Of a stretch of 40,249 nt of DNA, positions 3,718 to 25,418 are shown piece by piece; the stretch's first letter is position 1; the number at the start of each line of letters is the position of its first letter. The stretch is taken from positions 1 through 40,249 of the forward strand of contig NZ_JQEI01000017.1 in NCBI RefSeq assembly GCF_000743355.1, written 5' to 3'. The translations under genes and the position numbers were made by a program. The notes beneath the pieces were generated by a model. The model searched no databases. It was given only the letters and a program-made list of their open reading frames with translations, and was not told the origin of the DNA. This stretch comes from Serratia sp. Ag1. GTDB taxonomy: Bacteria; Pseudomonadota; Gammaproteobacteria; Enterobacterales; Enterobacteriaceae.

Positions 3718-4341
3718 TTAACCCATCATCTTGCGGTATGCCTCTGCGGCTTCGTCTGGGGTCATGTTGACAGTCTCGGTCTGGATCGGGCCACCGCCCG
3801 CGCCGGTAACCTCGGTTTTCTTCGGTGCTTCCCAGCCCTGCATCTCGCCGATCTGCTTGATGGCCCCGCGTGAATCGTGCAGCTTTAACTTGATGCCTTC
3901 CTTGCCTGCCGTCAGTTCGGCTATTGCGTCCAAGGCCTCGGGGCTTTGCTTTACCGAATCCTTGAAGCGCCAAACAGCCTGAATAATTTCCTCGCCCGTT
4001 TCAGCGTCCACGCCCAGTTTGTGTTCAGAGAACTCCACCAGGTCACGAATGCGTGAACGCCCCATCACAGTTAATCGCTCCAGGGCTTCTGTGCGGGTCA
4101 TGATGGCTTCGGAAACAGCTTCATGCTGTACGGATTGGAGGAAGGCTAAAACGTCTATATTTGTCGCTATTTGATGCGCAGATTTGCGCATGTTTTCGCC
4201 TTTAGCTTTCCCTCCAGCGGCCTTGTAGGCACTGGTTTGTCCCTTACCTTTGATTAGGTGAGTAACGAATCTTTTCTGTAGTGGCGTCAGGGCATCAAAA
4301 AGCGCTTTTTGCTCTGACGTCAGCGTCTTTTTCATGTCCAT
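3718..4341 (-). CDS. Terminase small subunit
   Basis: 207-aa DNA-recognition subunit of the packaging machine. The amino-terminal half (LTPLQKRFVTHLIKGKGQTSAYKAAGG) is the typical Terminase_2 helix-turn-helix, followed by an oligomerisation region and a flexible Gly-rich tail. It sits directly upstream of the large subunit and downstream of the spanin genes. An in-frame ATG at residue 3 is an alternative start. Confidence 0.85.
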   Translation of the reverse strand: MDMKKTLTSEQKALFDALTPLQKRFVTHLIKGKGQTSAYKAAGGKAKGENMRKSAHQIATNIDVLAFLQSVQHEAVSEAIMTRTEALERLTVMGRSRIRDLVEFSEHKLGVDAETGEEIIQAVWRFKDSVKQSPEALDAIAELTAGKEGIKLKLHDSRGAIKQIGEMQGWEAPKKTEVTGAGGGPIQTETVNMTPDEAAEAYRKMMG

Positions 4342-4403
4342 TTAAATATTCCTACTTGGTTATCTTACATTATCGAGCGCCCACGCATAGACGCTCTGTA
4401 ATG

Positions 4404-4721
4404 CTATTGCCGCTTATCTTCGATCTCCCTGATTGCGGCTTTGTCAAGATTGCATTGGCCCAGCGCCACGAACAGCATGGCATTTAGCTCCAGGCTATCA
4501 ACGTATCGGAACGGCATTGGTACTTTCGGTACCGGCGTATCCGCGGTTAATTCAGGGTTTAACTTCGGTGGGCTTACCGGCACGTACTCTATTTTCGAGC
4601 AACCGCAAATGCTCAGTGGCAGCAGTAGCGACATCACGAACAGCACACTGATCGTCTTTGACCGCTTCTCGGATATAAACCACTCTCGCCGCGCCTTCAT
4701 CAGCAAGCTTTTGTTTTTCAT
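4404..4721 (-). CDS. Rz1-like outer-membrane spanin lipoprotein
   Basis: 105 aa at most. The sequence shows a hydrophobic segment (VLFVMSLLLPLSICGC) ending in a lipobox cysteine at about residue 41, followed by a proline-rich short mature part (VPVSPPKLNPE), the hallmark of Rz1. The first half overlaps the end of the Rz gene in another frame, the usual embedded arrangement. It has no good ribosome-binding site, so the start could be at 4721, 4700 or later; translation is probably coupled to Rz. Role: outer-membrane half of the spanin that fuses inner and outer membranes during lysis. Confidence 0.7.
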   Translation of the reverse strand: MKNKSLLMKARREWFISEKRSKTISVLFVMSLLLPLSICGCSKIEYVPVSPPKLNPELTADTPVPKVPMPFRYVDSLELNAMLFVALGQCNLDKAAIREIEDKRQ

Positions 4722-4899
4722 CGTGTGTGGCCTTTGATATGTCGTGCATCAATCTGATTGCGGTCAGCGCATTTTTCGTTACCGCCTGGGTGCTATTTAA
4801 TGACTTCTGAGCCGTGGCATATTGGCCGTGATAGTGAAACGCCAGAGCACCAAGGCAAATAGCCACCAGCAACGTCGCTATAGGCCAATATTTGCTCAT
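4552..4899 (-). CDS. Rz-like inner-membrane spanin
   Basis: 115 aa with one amino-terminal membrane anchor (about residues 5-24, WPIATLLVAICLGALAFHYHG) and a long helical periplasmic part, as in Rz proteins. The end of the gene overlaps the Rz1-like lipoprotein gene in another frame. Start ATG at 4899 overlaps the endolysin stop (ATGA), completing the holin-endolysin-Rz-Rz1 order of lambdoid lysis cassettes. Confidence 0.8.
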   Translation of the reverse strand: MSKYWPIATLLVAICLGALAFHYHGQYATAQKSLNSTQAVTKNALTAIRLMHDISKATHDEKQKLADEGAARVVYIREAVKDDQCAVRDVATAATEHLRLLENRVRAGKPTEVKP

Positions 4900-5288
4900 G
4901 CAGGAAGCTCCACATGCGGCGCATCCAAAAACTTAGCCGGTACATCGCGCGGGTTGCCCGTCCAGGTAATACCGAATCGCAGTGGAACACGCAGCTCTTT
5001 GCCAGCCTGGTGCATGGCATCAAGCACTGGTAGCCAACACTTGTAATTATTCCAGTCGCCACCAATGGGGAACAGATCCACCGCGTGGCCGGTTAGATGG
5101 CGGCTGTCCATCGTCTTGCTTGCGCCAGTAGCTACCAGTTGCTTTTGCCGTTCCACCGTGCGCTTACCTTCGATCACTGAAAAATCTACGATCGAGATCT
5201 CCAGTGCGCGGCGGACAACTTTCACCAACGTTGGGTTTACTCCAACAAGATTGCCCTCGCTGCGCTGCGAAAATTTAAAATTTGTCAT
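4896..5288 (-). CDS. Endolysin, M15-type peptidase
   Basis: 130-aa peptidoglycan peptidase that cuts peptide cross-links (L-alanyl-D-glutamate peptidase type). Zinc-site residues of the M15 fold are visible: SRHLTGHAVDL (His and Asp ligands, residues about 63-73) and the carboxy-terminal DAPHVELP with the third His. No signal peptide is seen, so release depends on the holin encoded just upstream. The gene fits the normal length of short phage M15 endolysins. Confidence 0.88.
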   Translation of the reverse strand: MTNFKFSQRSEGNLVGVNPTLVKVVRRALEISIVDFSVIEGKRTVERQKQLVATGASKTMDSRHLTGHAVDLFPIGGDWNNYKCWLPVLDAMHQAGKELRVPLRFGITWTGNPRDVPAKFLDAPHVELPA

Positions 5289-22603: not shown

Positions 22604-22897
22604 ATGGATACTGCTGATACTGAAACTCCCAACAAGCTGCTTTACGAGGGCTTGGAAGGTGTTATGTCTTGTTTGCAGGTACTTGTTATTTGCCTAGGTA
22701 AATCAGGGCATTTGGATACTGCTGAATACACGCGTCTTCTTGCAGAGTGGCGATTGCAGGAAGCTCCACCTGAGTCAATAACAGAAGCTTTGATCGACCG
22801 GATGTTGGCAATGTTGGTTGATGAACCCGAGGTTCTGTTACGGCGTATGAGCATGCAGCTATTACCGGGAAGTGGTGACGAGCAGCAAACTGATTAA
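22604..22897 (+). CDS. Hypothetical plus-strand protein in the immunity region
   Basis: 97 aa, acidic and helical (LLYEGLEGVMSCLQVLVICL, ITEALIDRMLAMLVDEPEVL). Codon use looks genuine. The ribosome-binding site is weak (GGATAA). It lies on the opposite strand to the early operon, inside the stretch that the early transcript from 22987 must cross, so the two transcripts are antisense to each other. Not recognised. Confidence 0.55.
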   Translation: MDTADTETPNKLLYEGLEGVMSCLQVLVICLGKSGHLDTAEYTRLLAEWRLQEAPPESITEALIDRMLAMLVDEPEVLLRRMSMQLLPGSGDEQQTD

Positions 22898-22946
22898 GCT
22901 TTCTTCCAGTTGAGTTGATGAGTGTCTTCAGTTGATTTCTGGTCAT
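22686..22946 (-). CDS. Possible early leader ORF with strong ribosome-binding site
   Basis: ATG 22946 has AAGGAGG six bases upstream and lies about 40 nt after a near-consensus leftward promoter, so ribosomes should start here. The first 27 codons (MTRNQLKTLINSTGRKLNQF...) resemble the start of Ner-like HTH proteins; the rest does not look like a folded protein and overlaps the plus-strand gene. It may be the remnant of a first Ner-type gene or a leader peptide. Confidence 0.35.
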   Translation of the reverse strand: MTRNQLKTLINSTGRKLNQFAARHHFPVIAACSYAVTEPRVHQPTLPTSGRSKLLLLTQVELPAIATLQEDACIQQYPNALIYLGK

Positions 22947-22983
22947 CGTTGCCTCCTTGGTTGATGCAATGATGTTTGGTTTA

Positions 22984-23022
22984 TATGTGATAGATTATGT
23001 GATCAATAAGTCACATAGTCAA
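22984..23022 (-). promoter_or_regulatory. Early promoter and repressor operators of the Mu-like prophage
   Basis: Minus strand TTGACT (23022-23017), 17-bp spacer, CATAAT (22999-22994). TATGTGA occurs at 22984 and 22996 and inverted (TCACATA) at 23011-23017, so an inverted repeat with an 8-bp gap covers the -35 and -10. This is the obvious place for the divergent repressor to block early transcription. Confidence 0.75.
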
Positions 23023-23031
23023 GGTTGGATA

Positions 23032-23454
23032 GTGATTAATAAATCAATATTTGAGCGGCTCAAAGAAGAACGGAAGAAACTTAAGTTGACTCAGGCTACT
23101 GCGGCAGCGCTTGCAGGTATTAAGCGTGAGACATGGAGCCGGTATGAATCTGGACTTATATCACCAGGAATGGAAGTTCTCGCTGCATTGGCTTCTGCTG
23201 GGGCAAACATTCAATACGTTCTAACAGGAGAGTCATCCGGAGTAACTCTTTCCAGAGATGAAATGGAATTACTTCAGCGCTACCGCCAAGCTCCCATTCA
23301 GGTCAAAGGATCAGTGTTATCGGCACTAACAACAGGTTCATCCAAAGAACGAGCAGAGCAGGTAATTCATGGCGATGTTCTTGGGAACGTTATCAAAGGT
23401 AATGTGACCATGGGGACAGGGGCGATAATGAATAAAAACACGAAGAGAAAATGA
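23032..23454 (+). CDS. Mu-like prophage repressor (XRE family)
   Basis: 140 aa from GTG 23032 (AAGG seven bases upstream). The in-frame extension to 22957 would place the operators inside the gene and is unlikely. HTH residues about 6-60: RLKEERKKLKLTQATAAALAG, then RETWSRYESGLISPGMEVL. The end carries a short repetitive stretch HGDVLGNVIKGNVTMG. No peptidase domain is present, so it would not respond to RecA. Its stop overlaps the start of the membrane protein (ATGA). Confidence 0.82.
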   Translation: MINKSIFERLKEERKKLKLTQATAAALAGIKRETWSRYESGLISPGMEVLAALASAGANIQYVLTGESSGVTLSRDEMELLQRYRQAPIQVKGSVLSALTTGSSKERAEQVIHGDVLGNVIKGNVTMGTGAIMNKNTKRK

Positions 23455-24425
23455 GCGAGCTAAAGCAAACAGTTAACGGAGATGTGGGTAACGTTGTCAG
23501 CGGCGATGTGACCATTAATAACTATGCTGGTGATATTTCATCTACTGCACAGCAGCCAATCTCATTGTTACAAAAACGTGACCTACACAAGCTAATGGAC
23601 GAGTTAGTTGAAGCTGGCGAAAGTAAGCGAGAAATGTGGCTGATGCTCCATACCAAACTCAATACGACGACAGTCAATGAGATGACGGCAGCAGATTATC
23701 ATTGCGCTGTTGGAATCCTGCAAGAGTGCGCTCGACGGATAAAATACCTTAAGGACTGTAATATTCTGGTTGCTAAAATAATAAGTATTACTGGCCAAGA
23801 GTACCGTATTGAAAGGGATAGGTATTGCCTGAAGCGTTTTGGTACGACTCACCTCAAGGGAATGACTAAAGAGCAACTTCAGGAAATATTTGGTTATTTT
23901 GATGATCTATTAAATAATTGTGAATACGGTAGAACAGAGCCATTGCAGCAGGGGGCAGCAACAGAGCCAATTAAGGCAACTCTATCAACAAAAACAGCTC
24001 TATGGTCTGGGGTTGTCATTACTATTGTGGCAGTTTTTGCTGGTTTCATGGGCATTTCAGACAAGTTACCTTCAGTAAAAGATGATACCCAGAACGAAGC
24101 AAAACTATTTGCTGTTGAGACAAGTAACGGTGTTATCAATGCATCAATCCCAGCTTTGCGCAGTATTTTTCCTGGTCTTAATAAATATAAAAATGACTTG
24201 ATTTCACTATCAACTTACAAGCAAAAATCAGGGTGGCATACCCTTAAATTTACCGTTTCACCGCAGTCTTCCGCTCCTGATGCCTATGCTGTCAAGGGGA
24301 AGGTCTGTTACATCAACATCAGCCCTGACGGTGGTTATTCTCGTGTTTTAAGCACTCCATGCAGACTCTTATTATTAGATCAGCACAATGTTCCTGATGA
24401 AAAGTACCGCTTTATTTTACGATAA
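23451..24425 (+). CDS. Membrane protein coupled to the repressor; outer domain paralogous to next gene
   Basis: 324 aa. The start (about residues 8-26, VNGDVGNVVSGDVTINNYAG) repeats the GDV..NV..GDVT pattern found at the repressor's end. Residues 40-160 are helical, with two similar L..MT/Q units. One transmembrane helix lies at about 182-202. Residues 217-324 form a probable periplasmic domain similar to the lipoprotein at 24585 (VETSNGVI/VETDNPVV; FPGLNKYKND/CPGLDKYAAN). Translation is coupled to the repressor. It could tie the repressor to the membrane or signal across it (inference). Not a recognised family. Confidence 0.72.
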   Translation: MSELKQTVNGDVGNVVSGDVTINNYAGDISSTAQQPISLLQKRDLHKLMDELVEAGESKREMWLMLHTKLNTTTVNEMTAADYHCAVGILQECARRIKYLKDCNILVAKIISITGQEYRIERDRYCLKRFGTTHLKGMTKEQLQEIFGYFDDLLNNCEYGRTEPLQQGAATEPIKATLSTKTALWSGVVITIVAVFAGFMGISDKLPSVKDDTQNEAKLFAVETSNGVINASIPALRSIFPGLNKYKNDLISLSTYKQKSGWHTLKFTVSPQSSAPDAYAVKGKVCYINISPDGGYSRVLSTPCRLLLLDQHNVPDEKYRFILR

Positions 24426-24609
24426 GGATATCCGCATCGATGGAAAAACATTACCCGGTTGATTATGAGAACGGTTTATTCCCGTTTTGTTAGGTGATTT
24501 TGGGGAGATTCGCGTCGAAGAGACCGGATCGGTTTGTTTTCCTGAATCAAATGTAAATAACATCATTGAGATAAGGACAGGGTTATGCGCTGCGTATTTT
24601 TACCATTGA
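24409..24609 (+). pseudogene. Decayed coding remnant
   Basis: One frame reads LFYDKDIRIDGKTLPG, meets two close TGA stops (24460, 24466), then stays open with VLLGDFGEIRVEETGSVCFP and on to 24609. The composition looks protein-like, yet there is no start codon and it overlaps the ends of both neighbours. It may be an old gene fragment between the two paralogous-domain genes. Confidence 0.3.
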
Positions 24610-25112
24610 TTTTCATCTTGTCTGGGTGTGGAGATAATGCTGATTCTGATGAAACTTCCCCCCCAGCCAAGGAGCATTCAGTTTTCAACGTTGAAACCGA
24701 TAACCCGGTTGTAAAACGCGAGTTACCATTTATTCGTCAACAATGTCCAGGCTTAGATAAGTATGCTGCCAATTTCGAAGAGGTCAAAGTATCTGATGAC
24801 AATTTGCGTCCGGTGACAACAGTCCAGTTCCACATTAAAAGCGAGAATAATATTCCAGGCGGTTACATAGCGTCTGACCATAATTGCTTTTTGTTTATAT
24901 CAAATGATGCTCACGAGGTGAAAATATCTAAATCAGCCTGCCAGTCAGTTTGTTTAGACAGAATGGATGTTCCTGGTGGGGATTTGAGCGTGAAACTTGA
25001 CAAAGAACATCTTCCTAAGACTGATGGCAGCAAAGCCCCACGAGCAGGTTGTTTGACAGTTTTTTCACCAGACCCTAAGAATGATTATTGGGTATGTCCG
25101 AGACAGGACTAA
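24585..25112 (+). CDS. Lipoprotein with domain shared with the membrane protein
   Basis: 175 aa. The signal MRCVFLPLIFILSGCG gives a lipobox cysteine at residue 15 (LSGC). The mature part has five or six more cysteines that could form disulfides and a domain aligned with residues 217-324 of the upstream membrane protein. AAGGA lies seven bases before the ATG. Likely anchored in the outer or inner membrane facing the periplasm; a role in exclusion or sensing is possible but unproven. Confidence 0.7.
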   Translation: MRCVFLPLIFILSGCGDNADSDETSPPAKEHSVFNVETDNPVVKRELPFIRQQCPGLDKYAANFEEVKVSDDNLRPVTTVQFHIKSENNIPGGYIASDHNCFLFISNDAHEVKISKSACQSVCLDRMDVPGGDLSVKLDKEHLPKTDGSKAPRAGCLTVFSPDPKNDYWVCPRQD

Positions 25113-25121
25113 ATATTCTGT

Positions 25122-25418
25122 GTGTTGACGGCTCGCCGGGTGTTCCACCACCCTGCGGGCCGCTCTTTTTACTTCTGGTGTGCGGGTCACCCTGTTGACG
25201 CGATACTGCAACCGCGTCAGGAAAAAGAAGAGATCGCCCAGCGACCGATTGACGCCTACAAGCGTGATAATCATTTTGAGCATGATGCGGTTACGCCTGT
25301 AGCCGAAGGTGCGTTTGTTGACACGTGCAATCCTATTAATGAGACCGGTATTGAACCGGATAAGGGCGTGTACTGGTTTTGCGCCAGCGATTTCAATCAG
25401 TCTGGCGGTGCATTTTAA
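25122..25418 (+). CDS. Hypothetical protein, possibly a fragment
   Basis: 98-codon frame. From residue 20 on it reads as a genuine acidic protein (PRQEKEEIAQRPIDAYKRDN, NETGIEPDKGVYWFCASDF). The first 18 codons coincide with the terminator hairpin, and the only starts are GTG/TTG without a ribosome-binding site, so it is probably the 3' part of a lost gene or poorly expressed. Not recognised. Confidence 0.4.
   Translation: MLTARRVFHHPAGRSFYFWCAGHPVDAILQPRQEKEEIAQRPIDAYKRDNHFEHDAVTPVAEGAFVDTCNPINETGIEPDKGVYWFCASDFNQSGGAF
25129..25170 (+). terminator. Terminator of the immunity operon
   Basis: Long GC-rich stem of 14 pairs with one mismatch and one wobble (GGCTCGCCGGGTG / CACCCTGCGGGCC plus an outer C-G), a 6-nt loop, then GCTC and five T. 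It lies 16 bp after the lipoprotein stop and insulates the late promoter downstream. Confidence 0.85.

Follow-up and report, generated by a model that had tools for sequence, protein, structure and literature searches.

The repressor, membrane partner and lipoprotein of the Serratia sp. Ag1 prophage

The window analyzed here, a 40,249-nucleotide stretch of Serratia sp. Ag1 (contig NZ_JQEI01000017.1, NCBI RefSeq assembly GCF_000743355.1), carries a transposable, BcepMu-like prophage, a label taken from an earlier reading of the letters alone (the sequence-only reading) and from the way the syntenic region is annotated in E. coli. Three genes, encoding a repressor, a membrane protein (hereafter the partner) and a lipoprotein, lie on the + strand, divergent from a regulator and the transposition block on the - strand, and are followed by lysis and terminase genes (Table 1). 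The repressor ends, and the partner begins, with similar short stretches, referred to as tags, through which the two proteins very probably dock, as judged from the covariation of tags across phages and from a natural fusion.

The repressor comprises a helix-turn-helix (HTH) domain, a short stretch taken as helical, and the C-terminal tag, its C-terminal end being HGDVLGNVIKGNVTMGTGAIMNKNTKRK. Its open reading frame (ORF) is open from 22957 to 23454, with the likely start at the GTG at 23032, as in the annotated E. coli homologue WP_412534630.1. The absence of a peptidase domain, noted in the sequence-only reading, holds: scans of Pfam, PHROG and NCBIfam listed HTH-type and weak matches and no peptidase, and no LexA/CI-type S24 peptidase domain was matched in Pfam or NCBIfam at E values up to 1.

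The ATGA overlap with the partner gene and the stretch common to both proteins, which had also been pointed out, are both present in the sequence. The partner begins with MSELKQTVNGDVGNVVSGDVTINNY, and its proposed topology of a helical part, one transmembrane (TM) helix and an outer domain agrees with hydropathy and with an AlphaFold2 model (mean predicted local distance difference test score, pLDDT, 80.6; predicted template modeling score, pTM, 0.45), in which confidence is high for helices 31-160 and for most of the outer domain, an α/β domain spanning residues 227-309. The lipoprotein, which has a lipobox-like LSGC recognized by eye, resembles this outer domain, as had been suggested from short shared motifs. 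The phrog_10002 profile, which covers the whole partner, also matches lipoprotein residues 27-132 (E 3e-13), a search among the proteins of the same genome aligns the two domains at 26% identity (E 4e-8), and their models contain helices (H) and strands (E) in the same order, H-H-E-E-E-E-H, so that the two domains can be regarded as paralogous. The two structure models are not independent, because each alignment contained sequences of the other protein.

Table 1. Positions in the window of the three genes and of the features within them.
Feature	Position	Strand	Basis
HTH repressor without peptidase domain, 140 residues	23032..23454	+	HTH_3, E 1.2e-9; phrog_8/phrog_4 regulators; start by E. coli homologue in L008
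C-terminal tag of the repressor, HGDVLGNVIKGNVT	23368..23409	+	Sequence; matches the N-terminus of the next gene
Membrane partner, 324 residues, overlapping the repressor by ATGA	23451..24425	+	phrog_10002, E 7.8e-148, full length (residues 1-324 on 328 profile positions); AlphaFold2 model m1bd02da8fa14
N-terminal tag of the partner, NGDVGNVVSGDVT	23475..23513	+	Low confidence (disordered) when modeled alone; pLDDT <50, residues 1-27
Cytoplasmic helical domain of the partner, residues 31-160, Flk-related	23541..23930	+	
Single TM helix of the partner, residues 186-202	24006..24056	+	Hydropathy and AlphaFold2 model
Outer domain of the partner (presumably periplasmic), two cysteines conserved in alignment A5	24099..24404	+	phrog_10002 positions 217-321, common to the lipoprotein; alignment A5; model
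Lipoprotein, paralogous to the outer domain of the partner	24585..25112	+	phrog_10002, own-genome search, alignment A5; model mc8cfe9b4561e, pLDDT 74.5, pTM 0.64

Matching tags on repressors and the proteins encoded next to them

Pairs of repressors and next genes were gathered from E. coli genomes, phage and plasmid records, further genomes and IMG/VR contigs; individual loci are cited by L numbers. In the window, the tag match scored 52 (Smith-Waterman), the highest value among the 33 adjacent same-strand ORF pairs called there, the runner-up scoring 39. Type A, present in the window and in Mu-like elements of E. coli, combines the repressor tag GDVLGNVIKGNVT with the partner tag GDVGNVVSGDVT; type B, of P2-like phages of Enterobacteriaceae, combines GNRVAGRDYNEN with QNRxAGRDFxEN; type C, from one family of the order, combines GQIAGGNIY with EQIAGRDIY; and type D, from Burkholderia phage AP3 and its relatives, combines SVGQHVTGDVT with DVGQVAGGDVK, its partner occurring also in KS5 and Carl1. 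Further pairs include FHGNVGQVVEGSITN with FHGDVGQVAAGDINN and GGQVAGRNIIN with DGQVAGRDINN, and more exist. A common core, roughly G.V..GQVA.GDI.N, can be recognized by eye across the types, and lineage-specific repressor tags (GNRVAGRDY, GQIAGGNIY, VGQVxxGDI, GGVAGRDI) tend to be mirrored by the N-terminus of the next protein.

In a set of 49 non-redundant pairs, most with overlapping or closely spaced genes, 32 score above 99.5% of their own shuffles, and the mean score is 46.4 for true pairs, compared with 29.9 for mismatched and 21.5 for shuffled ones. Seven rows were dropped before clustering: L007, L018, L021 and L219, where the repressor has no such tag, L026 and L129, where the tagged partner is not the next gene, and L006, a broken copy. 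The 20 dissimilar pairs left after clustering average 41.1, against 25.7 when permuted (p = 2e-5, the lowest value that 50,000 permutations allow). When composition-corrected scores were permuted within groups of low and high guanine-plus-cytosine (GC) content, p was 5e-5, the floor of 20,000 permutations (20 and 29 clusters), and the same value was obtained with all 49 rows kept (25 and 34 clusters).

Among 585 distinct adjacent same-strand ORF pairs from the window and L001-L226, a score of at least 38 is reached by 58 of the 81 led by a repressor relative and by 2 of the other 504. In the 31 pairs with scores of at least 45, 335 residues are identical and are encoded by identical codons in 140 cases, against 139.9 expected from codon usage; it is thus the proteins that maintain the tag match, which does not reflect a fresh DNA copy. 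Of 5426 complete E. coli genomes, 515 contain DNA matching the tagged type B pair (509 of them across 80% or more of the pair), and 125 contain DNA matching the type A pair. Two disrupted copies accompany these families: in phage 520873 (L006, NC_049344.1, about 4340-4990) the partner gene is unannotated and its frame broken, intact copies being present in many E. coli genomes, and in L014/L037 the type A partner is intact and the frame of the upstream repressor is broken before the tag.

Fusion, triplets and exchange of the DNA-binding domain

The proposal of the sequence-only reading that the common stretch couples the repressor to the membrane protein is supported by tag covariation, by a fusion, and by HTH exchanges that spare tag and partner; triplets of tagged proteins, and the overlap or short distance between the genes of most of the 49 pairs, likewise point to physical coupling. 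The 'CI-like repressor' of Pseudomonas phage Gregale (267 residues) unites an HTH, a tag-like stretch seen by eye, and the partner helical domain in a single protein, and phrog_17822 has a similar layout, its first part being matched by repressors and its second by the partner of L182. In the triplets of L241 and L242, a repressor, a soluble partner and a third, hydrophobic protein all carry a lineage-specific tag of the GxVAGRDI kind; by hydropathy, the third protein has two TM helices in L241 and one above threshold in L242.

Between L062 and L008 (type A), identity is 52% in the HTH, 96% in the tag and 95% in the partner, and the corresponding type C values are 35%, 100% and 92%; seven HTH clusters of type B average 43% in the HTH versus 62% in tag plus partner, and type D exhibits no contrast between HTH and tag/partner identity. 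When E. coli DNA is matched to the L008 pair, the match begins at query position 187-203, directly after the HTH, in 7 of the 8 rows listed of the 125. Sequence comparison thus shows that one DNA-binding domain can replace another while the coupling is left intact.

Partner architecture and the helical domain

Partners vary from Flk-like, tail-anchored proteins with one TM helix to two-TM hairpins and a few proteins without TM helices, and the type B and C partners read here stop right after the TM helix. The design can therefore do without the outer domain, and the earlier idea of sensing at the envelope stands only in part: such sensing would be a trait of the window subtype and does not belong to the core of the system. 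An AP3 representative (L005:4415-5170) is a tagged membrane protein named 'alpha/beta hydrolase' in one record; profiles assign it to phrog_6521, and no hydrolase match was found in Pfam.

Comparison of the partner helical domain (alignment A6) with Flk of the host using hhalign gave a probability of 97.7 and an E value of 1.6e-12 over 125 columns. Flk, a flagella biosynthesis regulator (NF007987), shares with the partner the helical domain and a membrane anchor near the C-terminus, the latter seen by eye; it differs in containing two copies of the domain, in showing no tag, and in being chromosomal. Two stretches matching the partner helical domain are found in chromosomal Flk (G000:C9:190840-191838; L025, L027, L028). 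Against the Flk equivalog NF007987 itself, the partner reaches 30 bits, below the curated cut-off of 353, and the host's own Flk 453 bits. The flagellar regulator and the phage repressor partners thus appear to belong to one domain family. The first 70 residues of the helical domain may also share the fold of the Red beta C-terminal domain, with a weak sequence comparison (E 0.08, probability 0.7), and relatives of the partner gave matches to the phage anti-repressor Ant, phrog_245 (L011, 3.3e-5; L033, 2.8e-4; L010, 0.0046), whose helical C-terminal part would be the region concerned; phrog_245 is not among the PHROG matches listed for the window partner itself. Three separate families of unknown function or named 'membrane protein', phrog_10002 (window partner), phrog_6521 (AP3) and phrog_5825 (E. 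coli P2-like partner), are joined here by tag, helical domain and position after the repressor.

Gene order and neighboring genes

The order of repressor, tagged partner and lipoprotein of the window family recurs in L151, L153, L186 and L252-L254, the last three being alike; in L257 the lipoprotein follows the repressor and precedes a tagged two-TM protein. Of the outcomes that the sequence-only reading had named as refuting its proposal, dissimilar outer domains and an unconserved gene order were thus not observed, and for the interaction of the two stretches the covariation of the tags served as a proxy. Window-family lipoproteins are also found directly after tag-less repressors, without a tagged membrane partner, in L003, L020 and L023. 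Genes directly 3' of the partner differ among phages (L009, L010, L011, L017, L019, L183) and encode a BRCT protein, DUF2511 or small secreted proteins, a pattern resembling that of an accessory-gene hotspot.

Three further stretches of the window adjoin the trio. A 97-residue ORF (22604-22897, +; phrog_23931, unknown) precedes the repressor gene in the same orientation, much as the exclusion gene olg1 is placed in phage Fc02. Between partner and lipoprotein, at 24426-24584, open stretches resemble by eye the decayed fragment of another small gene. A 98-residue ORF (25122-25418, +) has a C...YWFC pattern in its C-terminal half that recalls the lipoprotein C-terminus (GCL...YWVC); it gave no family match in the Pfam, PHROG, NCBIfam and PADLOC scans.

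Proposed function and alternative explanations

The best explanation of the three genes is that they form a lysogeny operon of the prophage, a reading that as a whole we hold only tentatively. In the lysogen, the tags of the repressor C-terminus and the partner N-terminus very probably fold on contact and yield one repressor/inner-membrane complex; the repressor would be its DNA-side subunit and the partner its membrane effector. Infection would alter the state of the repressor, through titration by incoming operators or displacement, releasing or triggering the partner, and the periplasmic domain and the lipoprotein paralogue may act on the envelope side. Its location after the repressor gene suggests that the partner is expressed during lysogeny. 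The most likely output would be a prophage-encoded, Rex-like exclusion or abortive defence following the logic of lambda cI-rexA-rexB, a suggestion by analogy to which we give somewhat less than even odds. A defence output is favored by the exchangeable membrane partners behind a constant tag, in the position that is occupied by rexAB in lambda and by RexABpp in P. putida prophage P1.

Several observations weigh against this reading. The shuffle test is not passed by 17 of the 49 pairs, and only 6 of the 20 dissimilar repressors give their own partner the top score, the tags therefore being partly generic. Scores below 38 occur in 23 of the 81 repressor-led pairs, some with tags that can be seen but contain gaps (types C and D) and others tag-less. 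In the Komp_PAO1_1 type (L004, L147-L150) the repressor is tagged and the next protein is not, and in L175 the repressor tag has no matching next gene; the tagged partner of L026 lies about 780 bases downstream of the repressor rather than adjacent to it; L129 (1497-2353) encodes two tagged repressors in tandem before one type B partner; and in L018, L021 and L250 a motif-bearing membrane protein stands beside a tag-less repressor. Fused or soluble partners are found in L243, L182 and L241. In PADLOC, the matches of the repressor are confined to the HTH portion of the RmrA, HTH_VI and capH models, and the window partner and lipoprotein have no match. Two other groups of loci fall outside the tag rule: in L156, L169, L200 and L222 both proteins carry tag-like stretches, which do not score, and L219 and JBD25 have a tag on neither. 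The membrane proteins of L018, L021 and L250 constitute another small family, with a motif like ITISVGGNNxGSIxVGSVVNINP, followed by the lipoprotein in L018 and L021.

The fused and soluble partners show that some of these systems do without the membrane, an observation more in keeping with regulation than with a membrane effector. The partner could accordingly be a tether that regulates the repressor by holding a share of it at the membrane, or a co-repressor or latent anti-repressor; lysogeny would then respond to the envelope or replication state, providing a route of induction for a peptidase-less repressor. The repressor fusion and the likeness of the helical domain to anti-repressors or Red beta favor such regulation as well, but the partner architecture is very variable for a conserved sensor, the two-TM partners read here have no Flk-like domain, and the sequence resemblance to Red beta is weak; we judge this alternative somewhat less likely than exclusion. 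A second possibility is that the tags are self-assembly motifs by which each protein oligomerizes with itself, the similarity within a pair reflecting shared mechanics and no cross-binding. The core common to the types, the low number of repressors ranking their own partner first, and the motif-bearing membrane proteins beside tag-less repressors would fit this, whereas the within-pair excess over permutation, which persists after GC stratification, the lineage-specific triplets and the Gregale fusion make it quite improbable. Least probable is a prion-like (amyloid) signaling motif, by which a change in the repressor tail would template the partner N-terminus and switch the membrane protein on: the tag is placed as in the amyloid signaling motifs described in the available text of PMC12261475 and PMC8086366 and is disordered in the monomer model, but no NLR or Bell-type protein was found among the scanned proteins.

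Comparison with known systems

The lysogeny operon proposed here resembles lambda cI-rexA-rexB and the RexAB-type system of P. putida prophage P1, as presented in the available text of PMC12894663, in combining a DNA-binding with a membrane protein, the latter encoded downstream of the repressor. The resemblance is in position only: the partner gene is directly downstream of the repressor gene in the same orientation, the repressor itself bears the coupling tag, and the window partner has one TM helix, unlike the four-TM RexB type (four are predicted for PP_5644 in that text). Profile scans returned no Rex-named match.

Amyloid signaling motifs of the BASS/HET-s type, according to the available portions of PMC12261475 and PMC8086366, are about 25 residues long and occur at the C-terminus of one product and the N-terminus of another, encoded by collocated genes in pairs or triplets. 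The layout is alike, with short similar motifs at the C- and N-termini of adjacent gene products, attached to effectors; there, however, an NLR carries the motif, and here a phage repressor does. The Pfam, NCBIfam and PADLOC lists for the window repressor, partner and lipoprotein contain no NLR-type NTPase, and we do not file the pair under amyloid signaling.

In lysogens of P. aeruginosa phage Fc02, the ORF following the repressor gene repC is transcribed with it, according to the available text of PMC9936078. The repressor region of Fc02/Ps56 (beetreviruses) is similar in layout, with a downstream accessory gene transcribed in the lysogen; the likeness concerns layout, and the exclusion genes tested in that work (olg1 and gene 10) lie upstream of the repressor. 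The repressor of JBD25, whose match equals that of Ps56, has no tag. We found no description of tagged repressor pairs in open-licence papers, and the accessible parts of the phage AP3 report (PMC5247547) and of the TRADD-N paper (PMC8195603) mention no such pair.

Implications for temperate phages

A broader generalization, to which we assign a slim likelihood, is that temperate phages of Gram-negative hosts use modular repressor-tag/membrane-effector signaling, in which the repressor would serve as immune sensor, a prion-like, lineage-specific motif as docking element, and interchangeable proteins as effectors. If true, this modular system would be the phage counterpart of amyloid-signaling immune pairs. 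More immediately, a pair of hypothetical genes becomes a rule valid for both Mu-like and P2-like phages, and three PHROG families are linked to one another and to the chromosomal Flk domain. The rule predicts that a phage repressor may be physically wired to the membrane, and it allows two direct questions to be asked: what switches peptidase-less repressors, and can a lysogeny repressor set off a defence response?

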